Shown here in pieces: positions 3,173 through 44,530 of a stretch of DNA of 64,000 bases (its first letter is position 1; each line of letters starts with the position of its first letter). This DNA comes from Oscillospiraceae bacterium (GTDB taxonomy: Bacteria > Bacillota > Clostridia > Oscillospirales > SIG519): positions 1 through 64,000 of the forward strand of contig SVMS01000006.1 in NCBI GenBank assembly GCA_015067255.1. Reading direction: 5' to 3'. A program made the position numbers and the translations under genes. Below the pieces are notes generated by a model. That model made no database searches, was not told the DNA's origin, and worked only from the letters and a program-made list of their open reading frames with translations.

Positions 3173-5242
3173 ATGAAATTCTACCCCACCGAAAAAATCA
3201 GAAATGTTGCCCTGTTGGGACAGGGACACAGCGGAAAGACCGCTTTTGCAGAAGCTATGTTGTATATTACTAAAGCAACAGACAGATTGGGAAAGGTTGC
3301 CGACGGAACAACCGCTTCCGATTTTGATTCTGAAGAAATAAACAGAAAAATTTCTATTTCCACATCTGTAATTCCCGTTGAGCATGACGGATATAAAATC
3401 AACTTTTTGGACACTCCCGGATATTTTGATTTTGAGGGTGAGGTAATCGAGGGCGTTCGCCCTGCAGACAGCGCAATTATCGTTGTTTCAGGAAAATCGG
3501 GTATTGCCGTAGGTACCGATAAGGCTGTTAAGCTTACCGATATAAAGCATATCCCGAAAGCCTTCTTCATCTCAAAGCTTGACGAAGAAAACGCTGACTA
3601 TTTTAAAATTTTACAAAGCCTTAAGGATAAATACGGCGTACACGTATGCGCTTTGAATATTCCCTTGATTGAAAACGGAGTTATTAAGGGTATTCTTAAT
3701 GTTGTTGATATGATAGCCAGAGTTTATGACGAAAAGGGCAACAGAATAGTTGTAAACGTGCCCGACTCTTTAAAAGCCTTAGCCGAAGAGTACCGTGCCG
3801 CATTGGACGAGGCTATTGCCGAAACCGATGACGAGCTAATGGAAAAATTCTTCGCAGGCGAGAAATTTACCGATGAGGAAACTAAAAAGGGCGTGCGTTT
3901 AGGCATAAGCACAGGAACTCTTATTCCCGTTTTATGCGGCTCTTCTTCAACCTTTGTCGGCTTAGGCTCTGCTCTTGAAGCTATAACTGAGTTTTTCCCC
4001 GACCCCTCCATTTACACAGAGAGAGCTATGGCGGCAGCTCAGCAGCTTGAAATTGATGTTGAAACCGATTCTCCCACAAGCCTTTTGGTTTTCAAAACAG
4101 TTGCCGACCCATTTGTAGGAAAAATGTCCTACTTTAAGGTTGTAAGCGGAAATGCTACATCAGGTCAGTCCCTTTATAATTCAAGAACGGGAAATATTGA
4201 AAAATTAGGCCATATTTTCTACGTAAGAGGTAAAAAACAGGTAGAAACAGATAAAATAGGCGCAGGTGATATCGGCGTTGTAACAAAGCTTTCCGAAACA
4301 ATTACAGGAGATACTCTTTGCGATCCTGCAAGAAAGCTTACCTTTAAGGGCCTTAAATTCCCCACTCCCTGTCTTTCAATGGCAGTTGTTCCCGCCGCTA
4401 AGGGCGACGAGGAAAAAATCTCCGCAGGTATGAAAAAGCTTGCAGAAGAGGATTTGACCTTTACTCTTAAAAATAATACCGAAACAAAACAGATGGTTAT
4501 TACCGGAATGGGCGAAATGCATATAGACGTGCTTGTTTCAAAGCTTAAGAACAAATTCGGTACAGGCGTATCTCTGATAGCTCCTAAGGTTGCATACAGA
4601 GAGGCAATCCGTAAAAAAGTAAAGGTAGAGGGCAAGCACAAGAAGCAATCGGGCGGTCACGGTCAGTACGGTCACGTCTGGATTGAATTTGAGCCCTGTA
4701 TGGAAAACGAAGGCCTTACCTTTGAAGAGAAGATTTTCGGTGGCTCAGTGCCTAAGAATTTCCACCCTGCAGTTGAAAAGGGATTACAGGAATGTATGTC
4801 AAAGGGTGTTTTGGCAGGCTATCCCGTTGTAAATCTTAAGGCTACTTTGGTAGACGGCTCATATCACGATGTTGACTCTTCGGAAATGGCGTTTAAGGTT
4901 GCTGCTTCCCTTGCCTTCAAGGCAGGACTTACAGCCGCAAATCCCGTACTCTTAGAGCCGATAGGAAACCTTTCAGTTATCGTTCCCGACAGCCTTATGG
5001 GTGACGTTATAGGCGACCTTAACAAGCGTAGAGGTCACGTTATGGGAATGAGCCCCACCAACGAGGGCACTCAGATAATAGAGGCTCAGGTTCCTATGTC
5101 AGAGATGCACGATTACGCAATTGATTTGCGCTCTATGACAAGAGGCGCAGGAAGCTTTACCTTTGAGTTTGCTTGCTATCAGGACGCTCCTGCAAACGTT
5201 GCGCAAAAGGTTATAGCAGAATCACAAAAAGAACAGGAATAA
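3173..5242 (+). CDS. Elongation factor G-like GTPase (EF-G paralogue)
   Basis: A translational GTPase with the full EF-G domain order over 689 residues. G1 is GQGHSGKT (residues 16-23) and G3 is DTPG (80-83). G4 reads SKLD where canonical EF-G has NKxD, so it belongs to the divergent EF-G-like group found beside a normal fusA in many Firmicutes. Domain IV has the HKKQSGGHGQYGHV segment and the C-terminal domain ends TRGAGSFTFEF. The cellular role of these paralogues is not established; I would not call it the main translocase. The start was set at the ATG at 3173: AAAGG lies about ten bases before it, whereas the ATG at 3164 touches that site. A strong promoter precedes it and a terminator follows. 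Confidence 0.88.
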   Translation: MKFYPTEKIRNVALLGQGHSGKTAFAEAMLYITKATDRLGKVADGTTASDFDSEEINRKISISTSVIPVEHDGYKINFLDTPGYFDFEGEVIEGVRPADSAIIVVSGKSGIAVGTDKAVKLTDIKHIPKAFFISKLDEENADYFKILQSLKDKYGVHVCALNIPLIENGVIKGILNVVDMIARVYDEKGNRIVVNVPDSLKALAEEYRAALDEAIAETDDELMEKFFAGEKFTDEETKKGVRLGISTGTLIPVLCGSSSTFVGLGSALEAITEFFPDPSIYTERAMAAAQQLEIDVETDSPTSLLVFKTVADPFVGKMSYFKVVSGNATSGQSLYNSRTGNIEKLGHIFYVRGKKQVETDKIGAGDIGVVTKLSETITGDTLCDPARKLTFKGLKFPTPCLSMAVVPAAKGDEEKISAGMKKLAEEDLTFTLKNNTETKQMVITGMGEMHIDVLVSKLKNKFGTGVSLIAPKVAYREAIRKKVKVEGKHKKQSGGHGQYGHVWIEFEPCMENEGLTFEEKIFGGSVPKNFHPAVEKGLQECMSKGVLAGYPVVNLKATLVDGSYHDVDSSEMAFKVAASLAFKAGLTAANPVLLEPIGNLSVIVPDSLMGDVIGDLNKRRGHVMGMSPTNEGTQIIEAQVPMSEMHDYAIDLRSMTRGAGSFTFEFACYQDAPANVAQKVIAESQKEQE

Positions 5243-5777: not shown

Positions 5778-6439
5778 ATGAAAAAAGTATATGTTTTATT
5801 TTTATATATTATTATTTTGTTTTTGCTGACAGGATGTTATTCGGGATTGAAATCAGAGACAGCAAAAGGAAATCAAAAACAAGAAACAAAAAATATCTTT
5901 TATATCAAGCCCGATAAAACAGAATTACAAAAATTGTTATACAAAGCTAAAAAATTGATAAAAACAAATTTACAACTAAGTCTGCTAAAAAATTAAAAAT
6001 TGTAATTTTTTCTGTAACACAAACCATAAACAATCAGATTTCCACACAAAACGATATTAATATAGCTTACAAAACATTACAATCTGCAGTTGATAATATG
6101 GTCAAAGCAACAAAAGGAATTTATCAAATAAATTGTTCTCTTGACTGTATATCAATAAATCACGTGGGTGATGATTGGATAGAAGAAATTACATACAACG
6201 AAAAGTCAATTGAAGATGGAGATATAATAATTGCATCTCTAAAGGACGATATTACAATCATAGGAAAAGTAATAGAAAATGATAATATTCCTGATTATGG
6301 CAGCAGTTCAGTAACTATATCAGTTTCAGGAGGCGAAAAAACAACGCAGTTTTATGTGAAAGAAAACAGAGGAAGATACGCAGGCAATTCAGCTGTTTGG
6401 GAATTAAACTGTTCTGTTAAACTTTTAGAAAGAGTGTAA
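5778..6439 (+). pseudogene. FIVAR-domain lipoprotein, interrupted by a frameshift
   Basis: The first part (5778-5996) has a lipoprotein signal peptide ending in the lipobox LTGC, then a Lys/Gln-rich linker. After LYKAKK the frame runs to a stop, but one frame over the protein continues as KIDKNKFTTKSAKKL, then ISTQNDINIAYKTLQSAVD. That is the pattern of a FIVAR domain (surface and carbohydrate-linked proteins). It then runs through a small beta-rich C-terminal domain (GDDWIEEITYNEKSIEDGD, GSSSVTISVSGGEK) to 6439. Adding one base to the A6 run at 5949-5954 restores a continuous product of about 220 residues. The cause may be mutation, slippage or a sequencing error. The intact form would be an exported, membrane-anchored protein of unknown role. 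Confidence 0.75.
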
Positions 6440-6527
6440 GAACCTGACCCGCCTACGCATTAAAAATGCGTGGCAGGTACCCCAGAACCTTGTTGTTCTC
6501 ACAATAAGAACCTGACCCGCCTACGCA
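6438..6527. repeat. Two copies of a 22-base direct repeat
   Basis: AAGAACCTGACCCGCCTACG followed by CA occurs at 6438-6459 and again, identical, at 6506-6527. Between them, TGCGTGGCAGGT (6468-6479) is a partial inverse copy. The GC-rich repeats stand out in AT-rich surroundings. The 328 bases between the lipoprotein and the surface-protein gene hold only this repeat and the hairpins listed next; I see no gene. Confidence 0.8.
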
Positions 6528-6642
6528 GAGAATATATTTTTGATAACTCTTTAAAAATATTGTGCACCATTGAGTCAAAACTACCGTGATTACCAACAGA
6601 GAATTTGTTAAGAAATAAAATAACTTCTGATAAATAATACAA

Positions 6643-16951: not shown

Positions 16952-17090
16952 ATGAATTGCAATCTACGATTGCATGAATTGAAAGTAAATACTTTCATGA
17001 ATTACCTACGGCATAAATTGTGCCCAAGGGCACATTATTGCAATTCAATTCATGGCGTAAGCCAATTTATGATGCAAAGCATCAATTCAT
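16952..17090. repeat. Hairpin array D (ATGAATT-spaced, palindromic as a whole)
   Basis: The spacer ATGAATT occurs at 16952, 16974 and 16997. In the right arm the inverse spacer appears as AATTCAT at 17047, AATTTAT (one change) at 17064 and AATTCAT at 17084. Between spacers are short hairpins of unrelated sequence: GCAATC/GATTGC, GAAAGTA/TACTTTC, GTGCCC/GGGCAC, GGC/GCC and GATGC/GCATC, with two- to four-base loops. The architecture matches arrays B and C, with a different spacer. Confidence 0.8.
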
Positions 17091-36690: not shown

Positions 36691-36864
36691 TGCGGCAAAG
36701 TCTTGCCGCAATTATATTCGTGCTTCGCCCGAGCGATATATCTTCGATGCGATATGCGGCAAGCCGCGCGATATACGGCTACGCCGTGAGAAAAGACACG
36801 AATATAATATCGCTTTTGCTTTTTTAGCAAAAATATCGCTGCAAACGGCAGTTTGCAATATCAC
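36691..36864. repeat. Hairpin array B (GCGATAT left arm, ATATCGC right arm)
   Basis: It begins with the hairpin TGCGGCAA/TTGCCGCA (36691-36710). The spacer GCGATAT occurs at 36733, 36749 and 36768. After a centre framed by ATTATATTCGTG (36711-36722) and its inverse CACGAATATAAT (36797-36808), the spacer is reversed: ATATCGC at 36807 and 36833, ATATCAC at 36858. Hairpins between spacers have unrelated stems: ATC/GAT, GCGGC/GCCGC, ACGGC/GCCGT, TTTTGC/GCAAAA and TGCAAAC/GTTTGCA. It lies between ptsH and uvrC, just upstream of the uvrC ribosome site. Confidence 0.82.
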
Positions 36865-36886
36865 TTGTAATATTCCCCTAAAAATC

Positions 36887-37512: not shown

Positions 37513-40422
37513 TTATATGAGCTTAATCTCCTCAATGCCGAATTTTACAAAGGCATAGTCCTCGCTGTAAGCTTCACTCTGGCAGTCTTTCCAGCTATCC
37601 TTCATACTGAAGGTTGTAGGTCCTACAAACAAAGGCTCAGGTTCATTCTTTGTGTGGAAGGGTCCAAAATGGTTTCTGCCTCCGCTTGAAAGCGTTATTG
37701 TTATTTTGTTTGTGCCTACCTTGAGGAATTTGCTTATATCAAGCTCATCCTCAAGCATTATAACGCCTGCATTTTCAGAGTTTACCTCTATCTGTGCCGC
37801 TGCATATCTACCCTTAAGCTTTAAACGGTAATCTTTTCTTGTAAGCTCAAAGGGATTTAATTCAAGTCTTATATCCCCTGCAAAGAATACAAAGCCTTGG
37901 GTATTTATACTCTTGCAGTCCAAATCCTTTTTAGTGTCTGTTATTGCAAAATTATCCTCTGCAATATATACAAGCTCGTTTAATTTCTGCTGAACAGATG
38001 TAACTGCAAAATCACCCTTAAGACAAATGGGCTCAGGCTCTGTATCATAGGTCAGACAGTTTATAACGCTTTCGGTTACGTCGGGCATATCAAATAGAGT
38101 ATAATACACCTTTTCAGCCTGGGAATAGTCTATTTCAAGAGTTATTTCGTTTGTACCTTCAGAAACATAGGGCAAAATATCGTGGCGGAAAACTCTTTCG
38201 CCGTCATCCTTAAGCTGATGTGTAATAGCTATTTTCTCTTTGTTTATCCAAAGATTATTTATATTTGTCTTTTCTGTTTCAAGATACAGGCTTTGGGGAA
38301 TATTGTCTATAGAAAAGCTGTATTTTAAAAATACCGTTGTATTTTTTCTCTGCTTTAAAAGATAGTCAGCTATTCCGTATATTGAATAGCGTTGGCTGTA
38401 TTCCTTGTTATCAAAGGAATAGCTTGCCTTGTCAAGCACAAGACTGTTTTCGGTAAAATCAAGCACCTTACAGTCTGTAGAAAGACGTATTTCTTCTTTT
38501 TGAGTGTCCTCTTGCTTGCTTAAAGGCTCTGCACTGTCATCAAGCTTTAAAATATAAGATTGACCGGGGGCAAATTTCAGCGTAATCTCTATAAAATCGT
38601 TGCCTTTACTGTAATATACGGGGCTTTCCTTTTCGTTTTCTATATCGTATAATATAGCGCCGCCTGCTTTTATTTTGTAAGTAACTGTTTGCTCTGCGTT
38701 TTCAGAGATGTTGACAGCATACAAAAACTCTCCCCATGATGAGCTTCTGAAGGTAGAACGCACCTGAGTATTTACATCGTTTGTAAATATCTTTTCGCTC
38801 TTAAGCTCTTCGAAAGTACAGTTGCTCTTGAGAAAATCAAGCTGAGTCTTTTTGCCGTTTACATACTGCGGACATTGACCGTCAAGATAAATTCTTCCGC
38901 CGCCCTTTACAAAGGCTTCTAAGAGCTTAACTGTTGATAAGTCAAGACCCTGCATATTGGGGATAACTATTTTTTTATAGCTGCATTTTCCTAAGGTAAG
39001 AACGCCGTTTTCTACGCTTCCGTACTTTTCGAGTAAGCTTTCGTCTATATAATGATGTCCTATATTAGCAGCGCCCAATCTTTCAACCAACGATGCAAAA
39101 GCGCCTTCCAAAGCTTCAACGGATTTATAGTCTTCCCCACGCTTATAGGTGAGATATGCCGAATGAATAGGATGTATAACCGCAACCTCTGCAAGCTCAT
39201 TACTTTTAGCAAGAAGCATTCCCAATTTTGAGAAATAGTCAGAAAAAATTCTGAAATGCTTAAACCAAGGATTACTCTGAGCAAAAAATGCAGGATAATC
39301 GTATTTTCTGCTTCCTCTTATGGAATAGGGTGTCAGATGTGTACAAAGCAGATTTACTCCGTTTACATATTGCCATTCAAGTATTCTCTTTAATTCTTTG
39401 GGGGTAACGTCCCAGCCTGCGCCTGCAAAAATTTCTGTAAGCACCTTTTCTTTTCCAAGCTGCATAGCAACTGAGGATACCTGACGGGGTGTAGTTTCGT
39501 GGGAAACATATCTGCCAAGCCAATCACAGCCGGGAATATGCTCATACTCATAAAAGGGCATAACACCTGCACAGCACCACATCTGAGTAGACATAAGCTG
39601 TTCTTCAATAGCGTGGCCTGTAAGCTGACAGTTGTGCTCCTCACACCAGTCATATATCTGCTTTCCAAAGGATTTTGCAAACTGCTTATTCATTAAGCGC
39701 CAATATTTAAAGCGAGTTTCATAGGACTGCTCGCAATCAATAAAAAGCGCACCTAAGGTATCTAAAAGCTCTTGTCCATACTCTTTCTTATATAGCTCCA
39801 AAATAACGGGTGAATACGCAGTATCCCATCTGAAATACTGAGGCTCATCGGTAAAAAATCCAACTAATTTATTGCCGAATTGACTGCCAAATCTCTCGTA
39901 ATATTTTTCGTGAGTTTCTTTTATAAACTTTGCTACAATTTCTTCGTTTAAAATATCTACAACGGATGAGTTTGTCTTATCATAAACGCAGATATATTCA
40001 GCACTGCCGTTATCAGAGGTAACTCTTTTAATATTATTGTTATCAAGAACGTATACCCCAAGAGCCTGTGCATCAAAGCTGTTTTTGGTTTCGCAGACAA
40101 TATAATGGGCAAAGTTCTGACTGTCCTCCAACAGCTTCATACCTGCAAAGCCGCTGGGCCAACCGTTTTCGTCATAGCACCAGGCGTCCATTGAGCATTT
40201 TTCAGCCTCGTCCATACATACCTTTATAGCTTCAAACCATTCGTCGCTTAAATACTCGGTAACAAGACCGCTGCGTGCGTGCATAAAGAAGCCGCCCATT
40301 CCTGCTTCCTTCATCATTCTTACCTGTCTTTTAAGCTCCTCGGGACAAAGCTTATCGTTCCAACTCCAGAAAGGAATGGGGCGGTATTTGTTTAATTCTT
40401 TTTCGTCAAATATTTTACTCAC
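37513..40422 (-). CDS. GH106-like glycoside hydrolase, probable alpha-L-rhamnosidase
   Basis: A 969-residue intracellular enzyme without a signal peptide. The N-terminus RPIPFWSWNDKL, KRQVRMMKEAGMGGFFMHAR and CYDENGWPSGFAG matches the GH106 family (alpha-L-rhamnosidases acting on rhamnogalacturonan). The TIM barrel runs to about residue 440; a Rossmann-like beta-galactosidase-trimerisation-type domain follows (VAVIHPIHSAYLTY, ILKGGGRIYLDG-type strand), then beta-sandwich domains to the end. GTG start, with AAAGGGTGA upstream. Hairpin array C separates it from the GH31 gene, so it may be transcribed with it or separately. The exact linkage specificity cannot be read from sequence. Confidence 0.8.
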   Translation of the reverse strand: MSKIFDEKELNKYRPIPFWSWNDKLCPEELKRQVRMMKEAGMGGFFMHARSGLVTEYLSDEWFEAIKVCMDEAEKCSMDAWCYDENGWPSGFAGMKLLEDSQNFAHYIVCETKNSFDAQALGVYVLDNNNIKRVTSDNGSAEYICVYDKTNSSVVDILNEEIVAKFIKETHEKYYERFGSQFGNKLVGFFTDEPQYFRWDTAYSPVILELYKKEYGQELLDTLGALFIDCEQSYETRFKYWRLMNKQFAKSFGKQIYDWCEEHNCQLTGHAIEEQLMSTQMWCCAGVMPFYEYEHIPGCDWLGRYVSHETTPRQVSSVAMQLGKEKVLTEIFAGAGWDVTPKELKRILEWQYVNGVNLLCTHLTPYSIRGSRKYDYPAFFAQSNPWFKHFRIFSDYFSKLGMLLAKSNELAEVAVIHPIHSAYLTYKRGEDYKSVEALEGAFASLVERLGAANIGHHYIDESLLEKYGSVENGVLTLGKCSYKKIVIPNMQGLDLSTVKLLEAFVKGGGRIYLDGQCPQYVNGKKTQLDFLKSNCTFEELKSEKIFTNDVNTQVRSTFRSSSWGEFLYAVNISENAEQTVTYKIKAGGAILYDIENEKESPVYYSKGNDFIEITLKFAPGQSYILKLDDSAEPLSKQEDTQKEEIRLSTDCKVLDFTENSLVLDKASYSFDNKEYSQRYSIYGIADYLLKQRKNTTVFLKYSFSIDNIPQSLYLETEKTNINNLWINKEKIAITHQLKDDGERVFRHDILPYVSEGTNEITLEIDYSQAEKVYYTLFDMPDVTESVINCLTYDTEPEPICLKGDFAVTSVQQKLNELVYIAEDNFAITDTKKDLDCKSINTQGFVFFAGDIRLELNPFELTRKDYRLKLKGRYAAAQIEVNSENAGVIMLEDELDISKFLKVGTNKITITLSSGGRNHFGPFHTKNEPEPLFVGPTTFSMKDSWKDCQSEAYSEDYAFVKFGIEEIKLI

Positions 40423-40461
40423 AAAATCACCCTTTTGATTTTTTACAAAAACCCCGCATCA

Positions 40462-40666
40462 GCGTGTTATCCTTAACGGAAAACACGCAGCGATATAAAT
40501 TCCTTGCGTAATTTGCGATATTCCCTACGGGAGCGATATAAGGCTACGCCTTGCGATATGCAAAAGCGTGAGGGGGAATTTATATCATATCGCGTTGGAG
40601 CGAGGCGACAACATATCGCACGAGCAAAGCGAGTATATCGCGTTTGCGTGGCAAACATATCGCCTA
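40462..40666. repeat. Hairpin array C (four GCGATAT then four ATATCGC)
   Basis: The first hairpin is GCGTGTT/AACACGC (40462-40488). GCGATAT occurs at 40490, 40515, 40533 and 40553; its reverse complement ATATCGC at 40587, 40613, 40635 and 40657. Stems between spacers are unrelated, for example TCCC/GGGA, AAGGC/GCCTT, GTTTGC/GCAAAC; loops are often TAC. Around the turning point, GATATAAATTCC (40492-40503) pairs with GGAATTTATATC (40575-40586). Two right-arm units are imperfect hairpins. The array fills the 329 bases between two glycosidase genes; I see nothing else there. Confidence 0.85.
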
Positions 40667-40751
40667 ACAAAAAAGAGAGGACATTTCGGTTTGTATACTG
40701 ATTTGTACTCTCTTTCTGCTTATTATCATTATATTATTTTCTATCTCTGTG

Positions 40752-42290
40752 TCAATCGTTTACTTTTCTGTATATAGGTAATACGTCAAGGGGAGCGTCT
40801 ACTGTTAAGGTTTGTCCGCCCTTTATTATTTCACCGCTGCGGCTCTTCCAATTGCCCTCAGGGAATTTGATTTCTCTTGTTATTTTGCCCTTTTCCATAA
40901 CGGGAGCAACAAGAATATTGTCGCCAAGCATAAACTGGTCAATAACCTTTTCAAAGCCTTGATTGGGGAAAACATATTCCATATATCTTACAACAGGCTC
41001 ACCTGTTTTTCTTGCGTGCTCTGTCAAGGCTAAAATATCCTCTATATATTCCATACGCACCCAGGAAATATCACGGCAAAGACCGTTGTGATACTCGTCA
41101 AGAACTCTCCAGGGAGAGATTGAAAACTGAGTCATAGGCATAAGCGCCGCACACTGAGCGTATCTTACGAAAAGCTCCTGGTCAAGCTTGTCCTGGTCCT
41201 CTAAGAAGTCGGTAAACTGACCGCCGCCAATCATATCGGGGCAGGTATAGGCATATCCTAAAATGCCCTGTGCAAGCTGACAGGGAACAAGTGCCGCTAC
41301 ACCGTTGTCAGTCCAGGAATGGTTTTTATCTCTTAATCTGTGTACAAGCTCAAGTCCTGCCGCCTTCCAGCAAGCACGGTACTCGTTATACTTAAATCTT
41401 AAGCCGAATTTTGCCCACGCTTCGCTCTGTCCGTTACTGTCTGTCTTAGCGTAGATAACATCGTCATCAGAATAGAAATGGCCGTCGCCTGCATCAAGCT
41501 TAAAACCGTCTATACCGTATTTATCCATAAGATATTTATGCTGTTGATAGTACCATTCGGCAACTTCGGGATTTGTAATATCTACAACAGAGGAGAAGCC
41601 GTCCCACCATTGTTTTATGGAGGGAAGTCCCCACTTGTTCATAATAAGATAGCCTTTACTCCACGCATAGCGGAATTCTGCAGTGTCTGCAGAGATAAAA
41701 GGACAAGTCCAGAGCATAACCTTATAACCCATAGCGTGAAGCTCGTCAACCATAGCCTTAGGGTCTGTAAACTTTGATGTAGAAAACTCGAATTTTCCGT
41801 AATAGTCATTCCAACCGCAGTCAATCATAAAGACGCCCTTGGTGGGATAGCCCTCTTCCTTTATTTTCTTGGCGTAGTTGATAATTCCCTCTTGATTTTG
41901 GTTATACATAAGCTCAATCCAGGAATTGTACTGTATTCCGTCAAAAAATTCCTTAGGGGGAGCAACCTTTGAGGTGGGGAAAAATCTTTGAGATGCTAAA
42001 AGATATGTCTCTCTTAAATTACTTCCGCCTTCAAAAATCTGAGGCTTTTCCTTTATGCCTGTAATTACAAGCTCGTCCTTTTCGATTTTATATGTATATG
42101 CGCTTTCGCCCCAGATGTATCTTCCCTTATTTGATACAAGCAACGGAGATGCCTGATTATATGTGTTGTTAGGGTCAAGATTTCTGGAAATCTCGCTGTT
42201 TTCGCAAAAAGGCGCTTTTATACCGTCGTCACTGCAGCCTCCCCACCAACATTCATTTTCAAGCAGTTTTATATTCATTGTATATTCCAT
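40752..42290 (-). CDS. GH31 family alpha-glycosidase
   Basis: A 512-residue cytoplasmic retaining alpha-glycosidase. The GH31 catalytic barrel is clear: GVFMIDCGWNDYYGKFEFS, MLWTCPFIS, the nucleophile Asp in DGFKLDAGDG (near residue 270), the acid/base Asp in CPDMIGGG (near 350) and RYAQCAALMPMTQFS. GH31 includes alpha-glucosidases, alpha-xylosidases, alpha-galactosidases and sulfoquinovosidases; the N-terminal domain is short and the specificity unknown. The ATG at 42290 has GGAGG upstream and lies 11 bases after the DUF5696 gene, so the two are one transcript. Confidence 0.88.
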   Translation of the reverse strand: MEYTMNIKLLENECWWGGCSDDGIKAPFCENSEISRNLDPNNTYNQASPLLVSNKGRYIWGESAYTYKIEKDELVITGIKEKPQIFEGGSNLRETYLLASQRFFPTSKVAPPKEFFDGIQYNSWIELMYNQNQEGIINYAKKIKEEGYPTKGVFMIDCGWNDYYGKFEFSTSKFTDPKAMVDELHAMGYKVMLWTCPFISADTAEFRYAWSKGYLIMNKWGLPSIKQWWDGFSSVVDITNPEVAEWYYQQHKYLMDKYGIDGFKLDAGDGHFYSDDDVIYAKTDSNGQSEAWAKFGLRFKYNEYRACWKAAGLELVHRLRDKNHSWTDNGVAALVPCQLAQGILGYAYTCPDMIGGGQFTDFLEDQDKLDQELFVRYAQCAALMPMTQFSISPWRVLDEYHNGLCRDISWVRMEYIEDILALTEHARKTGEPVVRYMEYVFPNQGFEKVIDQFMLGDNILVAPVMEKGKITREIKFPEGNWKSRSGEIIKGGQTLTVDAPLDVLPIYRKVND

Positions 42291-42301
42291 AATGTCCTCC
42301 G

Positions 42302-44530
42302 CTATATTATTTTGCAATCTTTAGCTTTTATAGTAATTGAGTCTATTTCTTCGTCCTTGTCCCCAAAGTTTACATATATAACCTTGCCGTTTTCAAAGGT
42401 TGTCTTGGTTATATTTCCAAAGACCTCGTATTTGTCAATAAAGACGTTTTGTAAACCGTTGTGCAGCTCTGAGAATTTCTTCTGTTTCTCTGTTATATCG
42501 CTGAAATCCTCGTAATAACAGTTGTAAAGGAAATTCAAATCAGTTTCACGGATTTTACTGTTGTTTTGTCCCACAACGGAATATTTCAAAAGTGTTCCCG
42601 TTGCAATAGCTCTCAAAAATTCCTCTTGAGTATTTTCTGCGAAATTGAGAGATTTTCCGCTTATCTCCAACAAGCCGTGCATAACTATCTGATAGAAAGG
42701 AACTGATTTATATTCAATATCAAAGCCCGAAGATATCGTGGGAATGTCTGTAACGTGGTCCACAGCCTTAGCTGTATATATATTGCCTCCGAAAGCCATA
42801 CTGTAAAGCTTGTCAGCAGTTAAGACAGCCTTTGTCATATTTTCTGCATTGTCTTTTCTGTCGCAATATTTTTTTGTGTTGTAATCGGTGTAAAGGCTCT
42901 CTCCCAAAGATTCAAAGGCAATTCCTATATTTTTCTTTGCGGCAGATTTAATAAAGTCTTGAGTGTATTTAGCCGCCTTTGAGGGCGCAAGATAATAAGC
43001 GTTGCTCTTTACCTTTTCGCCTGTGCTTAGCATATATGTATTAAAACGTGCTGTCTGACGGTCAAGGCTTGTAGCTGTATTTAAAAAAGTAAACATAAAC
43101 AACGGATTTTTATAAGCTATTGTAGGCTCAAAAACCGTAGCTATATTTGTGTTAAGCTCCTGTGCCTTTTGGCTTAGCTTTTTGAAGCCGCCCATTCCGC
43201 CGACCTTACCGTCAAAGCTTAAGCTCTTATCGTAAATGTCCTGATATCCGCCTTTATCAAAGCCGTATAAAATCGTATTGACCTCATAATCGCCCTTTAC
43301 TGCTTCTAAAATTCTTATAACATCATCAAAGGTTGTAGCAGTAACCTTTTTATCTATCATAAAGCCTAAAAAGCTTTCTTTTATTTTTGTCAATCCGTAA
43401 AACTGTAAATTGAGAGATGGATTTGCTTTTTTATCACTAAGCTTTTTAAAGCCGTTTTTCAAAAGATAATTGCGGTATGTTTTTGCTATACCGTTATAGT
43501 CGGTGTCCTCAGTTGAAAAACAAAACTTAACCTTGGGATTTTCTTTAAGAGTTTCATCTCTTATTAAGAATATATCTCTTGCATTCCAGTCCTTATCCGA
43601 AAGAGAAGCGTTGTCAGTCTGTCTGTAAATAAATTTAGTGTATACATTTGCATACTGAGAGGATTTTCCTGCAGGATTTGCCACTATGTAAGCGTTGTAA
43701 TCTCCGCTTTCAACAATGGCGGTGATAGCCGAGGTTCCCAATGAAGCGGCGTAAACGGGTAAATTTATTTTTTCATTTACCGTTGTCTGCTTAACGAGAT
43801 TTTTGGTCATATCTCTGCCGTAAATCATTTCCTCGTAAGTGTTTGCGTTGCTGTTATCCCCCGAAAAATCAACCAGCATACCGCTTCCGTCGGGAATAAC
43901 CAGATAACCCTCGCTTCCCATTTTTCCGGAAACCATATACGGCATAAGAGAAATATCAAAAATTTTCATTGTACCGTATTCGTTGATTTTATCATACAGT
44001 ATTTCAACAATCAGAGAGTCATCCTCTAACTGATATCTCACGGGAATAATAAACTGCTCACTTTTACGTGAGAAATCGTATTCTATCTGAACTCCGCTTC
44101 CGTCCTTGTACTTACGTATTTTATACGTTCCTCTTTTAACGGAAGAAACCTGACTGCTTACTGTGTATTTATTGCTTTTGTCATCACAGAAGGAAACAAG
44201 CAAAGCCGACGTCATATCGTTGATAGTTCCGCCGCTGCCCTGCGCAATAGTGTCGCTTGCGTAATCCATAGGGATAGAGCTCCACATATGCCCTGTCTGT
44301 TTATCTTTTATTGTGATACAGGTTCTGTTTTCAAGGTTTATATACATTTCAAGCTTATCGTTCTGAGCGTAAAGCTCTCCGATACCCTCTGTATTTTCCT
44401 CTATTTCAGAATCAAGCTGTTCTTCCTCTGTTGCCGGTGTCTCTTCGTTTTGTGCATATATAAATGCACTTGAGGATAAAAACACAAGCAATAGAGCTAA
44501 AAACAGTACTAATGCTTTTCTTTTAATCAT
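42302..44530 (-). CDS. Secreted DUF5696-type protein
   Basis: A 742-residue exported protein. A signal peptide (about 1-26, ending FIYAQ) is followed by an acidic Glu/Thr-rich linker, a beta-rich domain (about 60-370, LVIPDGSGMLVDFSGD, YGRDMT) and a probable TIM-barrel-like part (about 375-640, ILYGFDKGGYQDIYDK, GIAFESLGESLYTDYN). It has no lipobox, no membrane anchor and no recognised catalytic motif. Proteins of this type occur in Firmicutes beside sugar ABC transporters. A glycoside-hydrolase-like role is possible but unproven. It follows the Yip1 gene by 16 bases. Confidence 0.7.
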   Translation of the reverse strand: MIKRKALVLFLALLLVFLSSSAFIYAQNEETPATEEEQLDSEIEENTEGIGELYAQNDKLEMYINLENRTCITIKDKQTGHMWSSIPMDYASDTIAQGSGGTINDMTSALLVSFCDDKSNKYTVSSQVSSVKRGTYKIRKYKDGSGVQIEYDFSRKSEQFIIPVRYQLEDDSLIVEILYDKINEYGTMKIFDISLMPYMVSGKMGSEGYLVIPDGSGMLVDFSGDNSNANTYEEMIYGRDMTKNLVKQTTVNEKINLPVYAASLGTSAITAIVESGDYNAYIVANPAGKSSQYANVYTKFIYRQTDNASLSDKDWNARDIFLIRDETLKENPKVKFCFSTEDTDYNGIAKTYRNYLLKNGFKKLSDKKANPSLNLQFYGLTKIKESFLGFMIDKKVTATTFDDVIRILEAVKGDYEVNTILYGFDKGGYQDIYDKSLSFDGKVGGMGGFKKLSQKAQELNTNIATVFEPTIAYKNPLFMFTFLNTATSLDRQTARFNTYMLSTGEKVKSNAYYLAPSKAAKYTQDFIKSAAKKNIGIAFESLGESLYTDYNTKKYCDRKDNAENMTKAVLTADKLYSMAFGGNIYTAKAVDHVTDIPTISSGFDIEYKSVPFYQIVMHGLLEISGKSLNFAENTQEEFLRAIATGTLLKYSVVGQNNSKIRETDLNFLYNCYYEDFSDITEKQKKFSELHNGLQNVFIDKYEVFGNITKTTFENGKVIYVNFGDKDEEIDSITIKAKDCKII

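Follow-up and report, generated by a model that had tools for sequence, protein, structure and literature searches.

A mirrored array of short hairpins, here called Array C, lies in an Oscillospiraceae draft genome (GCA_015067255.1). The stretch analyzed, hereafter the window, comprises positions 1–64,000 of contig SVMS01000006.1. Array C is probably a non-autonomous copy, lacking any gene, of a small mobile element that is linked to a gene of the 23S rRNA IVP family and is hosted by gut Clostridia (Oscillospiraceae type). Arrays of this design are dispersed among chromosomes and phages, and they are linked to IVP genes. The IVP protein may bind the array and drive its movement. Gut-1, a 15-year-old orphan RNA family, and the orphan IVP protein family appear to be parts of one system. 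Loci, genomes, and contigs are cited below by working labels beginning with L, G, and C.

Comparison of copies revealed a fixed plan. An end hairpin (H0) is followed by linkers 1–4 with hairpins H1–H3, a centre with hairpin H4, linkers 5–8 with hairpins H5–H7, and often a closing hairpin (H8). Within the centre is a strand complementary to the tail of linker 1 and the 5′ arm of H1, a pairing referred to as P1. A hairpin occupies the H0 position in nearly all copies, and CA directly precedes linker 1 in most. Array C has the mirrored four-plus-four linkers, the hairpins, and the P1 complementarity. The initial annotation, made from the window alone, had described four GCGATAT followed by four ATATCGC spacers, a different hairpin in each interval, small TAC or TTC loops, a turning point that is itself an inverted repeat, and a location between two glycosidase genes. 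These points were borne out. The linkers lie at the mapped coordinates (Table 1), each hairpin position has its own sequence family, such loops are typical, the turning point contains a 12-bp inverted partner of linker 1 and H1 (40492–40503/40575–40586), and the neighbors are GH106 and GH31 genes. The reading of the layout as constant linkers and variable hairpins with a reversal at mid-array also holds in many genomes, but the repeat unit is longer than had been given.

Linkage of arrays to IVP genes

An array in genome G075 has an orthologue in genome G129 (97% flanks) that is immediately followed by a 122-amino-acid open reading frame (ORF; L383). This ORF belongs to 23S_rRNA_IVP (PF05635, E = 1.9e-21) and has a relative of solved structure (2rld). 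IVP genes were also found after the GCGATAT arrays L112, L194, and L070, starting 14–15 nt past the array in L112 and L194, and after the Gut-1 type arrays L337, L428, L430, L432, and L433. There is no IVP gene directly after Array C, which is a gene-less copy. IVP genes were present in 30 of 32 Gut-1-positive genomes, compared to 4 of 17 Gut-1-negative genomes (P = 8e-7). A strict mirrored array was identified upstream of 26 of 56 IVP genes and of 22 of 267 control ORFs, most of which come from array-bearing loci, biasing the control rate upwards. A sigma-70-like promoter occurs between the array and the IVP start codon in 16 of 25 linked cases, and in those cases the array therefore does not form the leader of IVP transcripts.

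A phylogenetic tree was constructed from about 50 IVP proteins, 29 of which have a known linker class, judged by eye on the arrays upstream of their genes. Linker class required 12 changes on this tree for 12 classes (minimum 11), compared to at least 17 and a mean of 19.8 in 500 shuffles. Host family required 17 changes, compared to a shuffled mean of 17.6. The tree thus tracks linker class and not host family, indicating that array and protein stay together across hosts. Genome G129 alone carries IVPs of three classes, each within its own clade. The match between IVP clade and linker class holds for the GCGATAT class as a whole.

Dispersal in chromosomes and phages

Positions 40462–40718 of the window align to two loci, L104 (86%) and L048 (80%), both in one other Oscillospiraceae metagenome-assembled genome (SIG689). 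The alignments include H0 and H8, and similarity ends abruptly on the window side at both ends, with unrelated flanking genes. Twelve copies within the genome of Array C (its own genome) align to each other at 69–98%, with edges near the array, and all 13 array-type copies in this genome lack an IVP gene. Ten near-identical half elements with one sharp left edge occur at different places in genome G111, several of them at contig ends, as is seen with unresolved repeats. In the same genome, one half array is preceded by a different terminator hairpin at each of two positions (L353:1503 and L353:1852, G111:C97), so H0 is exchangeable. Two hybrid arrays in the own genome (L183:5277–5461 and 6377–6543, C9) have GCGATAT linkers in one half and TCGATAT linkers in the other; halves have therefore been swapped between linker classes.

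An array is kept at one site in G075 and G129, and the IVP part differs. Loci L444 (G075:C32) and L432 (G129:C5) of these sister genomes share the same tRNA-Tyr gene and terminator (..GCTTTTCAACTAA) and then diverge at one base. Beyond this point, one has a GTGAAAT element with an IVP gene and the other has a GTGAAG/GTGAAAT hybrid without one, making this an apparent exchange site. At L433 (G129:C4) and L443 (G075:C10), 5′ fragments of a tRNA gene (GGGGCGTTAGCGCAGTTGGG..) are repeated ahead of the intact tRNA at the element site, as if repeated insertions had cut into the gene and then restored it. A gene end (CDRFKK-stop) is duplicated behind the array at L204:5848–6100 (G075:C4), with synonymous differences only. 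A clean empty chromosomal site was sought but none was found; G019 and G143 share just one flank.

Copies are oriented with respect to neighboring genes. Based on simple ORF calls, with one tRNA case re-oriented by eye, the H0/H1 end faces a gene 3′ end in 30 of 41 GCGATAT copies (P = 0.004), and in same-direction settings the order gene 3′ end, H1 to H7, next gene outnumbers the reverse by about 26:6. Gut-1 type elements were found directly behind tRNA genes, and in one case tmRNA, and their terminators.

Occupied and empty sites were distinguished in phages, for which gene names are putative and were read from sequence alone. Phage L447 has a GCGATAT element between a head gene (..EKIYPG-stop) and a capsid gene. 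This interval is 248 nt long, compared to 16–131 nt in measured relatives, and an array occupies the site in 1 of 38 distinct phages compared. Phage L527 contains three arrays that each begin 27–28 nt past a stop codon; in 30 relatives, no array accompanies the corresponding gene. An 18-bp sequence, CCCGGCTAAGCGAGCCGC, is present on both sides of the L219/L447 phage element. The 5′ arm of H0 in L219 is host sequence (GCGAGCCGC), its 3′ arm is an inverse copy, and the host sequence occurs again behind the element (L219:4319–4351, 4523–4546), an arrangement that looks like snap-back synthesis at insertion. A search of phage records with the array returned no match.

Abundance of linker arrays

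GCGATAT occurs 18 times in the window, compared to 6.5 expected, and none of 100 shuffles attained this number. The search for GCGATAT series that had been suggested in the initial annotation identified 51 pairs (GCGATAT-N5-35-GCGATAT) at 13 places in the whole genome (1.84 Mb draft), and the same pattern read backwards without complementing had no occurrences. Perfect stems of at least 4 bp were present in 73% of 315 distinct linker-to-linker segments and in 2% after shuffling. Chance had been named as the outcome if relatives lacked such arrays or if shuffled sequence gave similar counts. Arrays recur in relatives and counts lie far beyond chance, and together with the covariation described below, these controls led us to reject chance or base composition, the probability of which is negligible.

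Four linkers in one direction followed by four in the other (>>>><<<<) is the most frequent layout among hairpin arrays from GTDB genomes, in which series of the same 7-mer without hairpins (mostly coding repeats) are nearly all unidirectional. A run of 34 copies of ATATCGC in one direction without hairpin spacing in Sporolactobacillus putidus (L093:468–1134) is an unrelated tandem repeat. When the exact H1 unit was searched for across the phylum, no match was returned beyond the own genome in a sample with few same-order genomes, and the case for spread therefore rests on the other searches. Searching literature text for the linker sequence gave primer noise alone.

Conserved structure

Covariation was assessed in 32 non-redundant elements, which were gathered by linker, so that the constancy of their linkers carries no evidential weight of its own. 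Hairpins H1, H2, H3, H5, H6, and H7 are paired in 85%–98% of cells, compared to 45%–73% with re-dealt partners, and each has 33–71 double changes where re-dealt partners give 6–19. P1 is paired in 93% of cells (81% re-dealt) with 38 double changes (8 re-dealt), and sliding the partner by 1–3 bases destroys the signal. We read this pattern as selection for the structure or templating of it. For the linker-1 variants GCTATAT, GCGAGAT, and GTTATAT, the matching sequence lies in the centre (AATATA, ATCTC, and AATATA, respectively) and not in linker 8, indicating that linker 1 partners the centre. H1 and P1 have one arm in common and compete for it, and its three copies change together. The RNA fold z-score is about −4 to −4.6.

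It had been proposed that the whole array could fold into one long branched structure. A single trunk built from four linker pairs and bearing side hairpins (a "tree") was rejected as the sole structure, as folding favors it only in part (probability 0.3–0.55) and variants of linker 1 are matched in the centre rather than in linker 8.

Loops differ by strand. YTN(N)CG loops occur on the + strand in 96 of 152 left-half hairpins and 1 of 163 right-half hairpins, and on the − strand in 0 of 152 and 79 of 163, respectively. Their complements are C(GNA)G, C(GNNA)G, and GNRA loops, all of which form unusually stable DNA hairpins, GNRA doing so in RNA as well.

Relationship to Gut-1 and other linker classes

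The Rfam model Gut-1 (RF01706) matches, over its full length, one half of Array C at positions 40488–40564 (36.9 bits, E = 6e-6). This score lies below the gathering threshold of 50 bits, and none of 15 other loci with such arrays has Gut-1 above cut-off. Array C has hairpins on constant linkers with covariation, as does Gut-1, but was rejected as a free-standing member of that family because of its score; its linker is GCGATAT rather than GUGAAAU. The earlier statement that no named element was known with this design is not entirely accurate, since Gut-1 shares the design with another linker.

Gut-1 was identified in 63 of 147 genomes of the order, with up to 29 copies each and 22 in the own genome. 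The strongest matches are halves of a mirrored eight-linker element that has GTGAAAT/ATTTCAC linkers and follows the P1 logic as well. Further linker classes include GTGATAT, GTGATGT, GTGAAG, TCGATAT, and TGAATTG, among others. In 2010, Gut-1 was reported as a candidate noncoding RNA from human gut sequences only (PMC2864571), and none of the later papers searched names it.

Organization of Array C and its surroundings

Coordinates of the features are given in Table 1. H8, the closing hairpin, is positioned 3′ of the GH31 gene. The window contains a second array of like design and, at 16954–17090, a further array of hairpins on constant linkers (AATTCATG/CATGAATT) of a type that directly precedes an IVP gene in L409.

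Table 1. Array C, its parts, and neighboring features in the window
Feature	Position	Strand	Basis
Whole dispersed unit (H0, mirrored array, and H8)	about 40461–40721	+	86% alignment to L104:2426–2685, 80% to L048
H0 end hairpin (GCGTGTTATCC..GGAAAACACGC), then A	40462–40489		Inverted repeat 40462–40472/40478–40488, 91%
Left half, GCGATAT linkers at 40490, 40515, 40533, 40553	40490–40559	+	
Left-half hairpins	H1 40497–40514, H2 40522–40532, H3 40540–40552		
P1 5′ strand GATATAAATTCC (linker-1 tail and H1 5′ arm)	40492–40503	+	12/12 complementary to 40575–40586; covariation over 30 elements
Centre, degenerate hairpin H4 and P1 3′ strand GGAATTTATATC (40575–40586)	40560–40586	+	
Right half, ATATCGC linkers at 40587, 40613, 40635, 40657	40587–40663	+	Loop motif on strand opposite to that of left half
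Right-half hairpins	H5 40594–40612, H6 40620–40634, H7 40642–40656		
H8 terminator-like hairpin (AGAGAG..CTCTCT, T-run on − strand)	40664–40721	−	Inverted repeat 40665–40690/40697–40722; kept in L104 and L048
Flanking gene, GH106 alpha-L-rhamnosidase-like	37513–40422	−	Pfam PF17132, E = 3.8e-18
Flanking gene, GH31 glycoside hydrolase	40752–42317	−	Pfam PF01055 and PF21365
Second array, like design (GCGATAT ×3, ATATCGC ×2, ATATCAC)	36733–36866		77% alignment to L138; inverted-repeat stem from about 36715

Proposed mechanism and alternative explanations

A full element consists of H0, four linkers with H1–H4, four reversed linkers with H5–H7, often a promoter, and then the PF05635 gene, the product of which is a four-helix-bundle protein of the 23S rRNA IVP family. 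This protein may recognize the linker/hairpin array of its own class, as DNA or RNA, and aid its spread, with a host nuclease or polymerase used for the movement. Copies that lack the gene, Array C among them, would be served in trans. Landing sites lie mostly just 3′ of genes and strong terminators (tRNA genes and gene ends), probably because insertion does least harm there or because terminator hairpin DNA is the target. We slightly prefer DNA over RNA as the acting form, because most linked IVP genes have their own promoter behind the array, because one strand carries C(GNA)G and C(GNNA)G loops, which form DNA hairpins of unusual stability, and because many copies sit behind a terminator.

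Several observations weigh against this mobile-element explanation. Movement of an array was not observed directly, and no flanking duplication is consistent across the chromosomal copies; general target duplication was rejected, as only a few cases were found. About half of the IVP genes have no strict array. One IVP clade is paired with simple tandem repeats instead of hairpin arrays. The four IVPs found in the own genome, a draft assembly (C2, C3, C19, and C32), all fall outside the GCGATAT clade; the arrays of this genome may now be stranded, or the gene may have disappeared or been overlooked in the draft. No catalytic activity is known for IVP, so another enzyme may be needed. The match of linker and IVP could mean mere joint travel instead of binding, and the strand asymmetry of the loops could equally serve an RNA. 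As a separate observation, other IVP clades (L386–L390, L410, L425, and L429) have simple tandem repeats on both sides (ATTATTC, GCATTCTGCA.., and AGATAA) in place of hairpin arrays.

The arrays could instead be a host-useful RNA device (a structured 3′ region, a back-up terminator, or a protector of mRNA or tRNA 3′ ends, i.e., a "Gut-1 small RNA") that was duplicated and selected at gene 3′ ends. The orientation bias of GCGATAT copies at gene and tRNA 3′ ends, covariation in the hairpins and P1, the RNA fold z-score, and the curation of Gut-1 as an RNA agree with such a device. We nevertheless find it unlikely, given copies that lie behind complete tRNA-gene terminators, arrays in phage late genes that are absent from close relatives, positions that are not conserved, the modest folding probability of the trunk, and an IVP linkage and co-phylogeny that it leaves unexplained. 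An operator or decoy array, in which IVP binds the linkers to control its own gene and arrays are immobile, is somewhat less probable still. Arrays directly upstream of the IVP promoter and the tracking of IVP clade by linker class speak for it, but most copies have no gene (every copy in the own genome), copies are dispersed with sharp edges, and an empty site exists in phages. Neither the RNA device nor the operator accounts for dispersal and co-phylogeny together.

Movement by other enzymes was also considered, either of a repetitive extragenic palindrome (REP) or REPIN-like repeat by a RAYT (Y1) transposase or of a retro-element by a terminator-targeting group II-type reverse transcriptase (RT). 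REPs resemble the arrays in carrying a fixed tag at the base of variable hairpins, and group IIC introns resemble them in their terminator-side location. Co-occurrence argues against both. Y1 transposases were identified in 11 of 28 array-rich and 7 of 17 array-poor genomes (P = 1), and RTs (RVT_1) in 9 of 28 and 6 of 17 (P = 1). The own genome holds three Y1 genes, but several genomes with more than 20 copies, e.g., G003, G010, G023, and G142, have neither enzyme. A RAYT or RT helper was rejected on this basis and is very improbable. Among the uses listed in the initial annotation, the best fit is a dispersed repeat associated with a binding protein, an RNA-stability or termination device is a weaker possibility, and help from a polymerase or Y1 transposase has no support from co-occurrence.

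The proposed IVP-linked element unites two orphans, a half-known Rfam noncoding-RNA family and a protein family of no known function, in one testable unit. The match between linker and IVP offers a binding test with built-in specificity controls between classes. If IVP does drive movement, the process would resemble transposition but lack a known transposase, and it would account for much of the repetitive intergenic DNA, and for the assembly breaks, in genomes of gut Clostridia. We further suggest, as plausible rather than probable, that these elements are a separate class of mobile element in which IVP reads a class-specific 7-nt linker, present eight times in mirrored, branching DNA, and thereby shifts the array, both in cis and in trans, to positions 3′ of genes and terminators. 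One system would then have produced Gut-1 "RNA," the intervening sequences of rRNA, and the gene-less arrays of gut Clostridia alike.

Comparison with known systems

Array C resembles clustered regularly interspaced short palindromic repeats (CRISPR) in that constant and variable units alternate. It differs in having a constant unit of 7 nt, variable units that are position-conserved hairpins, and a mirrored arrangement fixed at eight linkers, and it does not have long, uniformly oriented direct repeats separated by unique spacers. Intrinsic terminators have a GC hairpin and U-run, a form taken only by H8; the array hairpins have no U-run. Group II introns and other retro-elements differ in their RT helper, which has no association with the arrays.

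Miniature inverted-repeat transposable elements are likewise small, without an ORF, dispersed, and equipped with inverted repeats (here P1 and the mirrored linkers), and there is one clear target duplication in a phage. However, the parental transposase was not found, and the target duplication (18 bp, phage L219/L447) is absent in most copies. There are IVP-bearing full copies, although IVP is not among the known transposases. REP sequences, bacterial interspersed mosaic elements (BIMEs), and the REPIN-RAYT system (PMC3733652) have a short fixed tag at the foot of a variable hairpin, are inverted and intergenic, and lie near gene 3′ ends, as do the arrays. Their tag is GTAG/CGTC rather than GCGATAT, and Array C has no association with Y1 transposases.

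Intervening sequences (IVSs) of 23S rRNA, which RNase III excises, have the same protein family, PF05635, and are selfish hairpin-forming elements. In Coxiella, the IVS was called a selfish element; its S23p/IVP protein is without a known function, and tandem heptamer repeats (GACAGAT) precede the S23p gene in numbers that vary between strains (PMC4990558). By analogy, heptamer-like units ahead of IVP genes may be general. Array C is intergenic (GH106/GH31) and not in 23S rRNA, has no IVP gene, and is a mirrored array rather than the single terminal stem of an IVS. Gut-1 has the linker GTGAAAT instead of GCGATAT, and its Rfam model covers one half only, but it shares with Array C constant linkers of ~7 nt, variable covarying hairpins, and complementarity between H1 and the centre.
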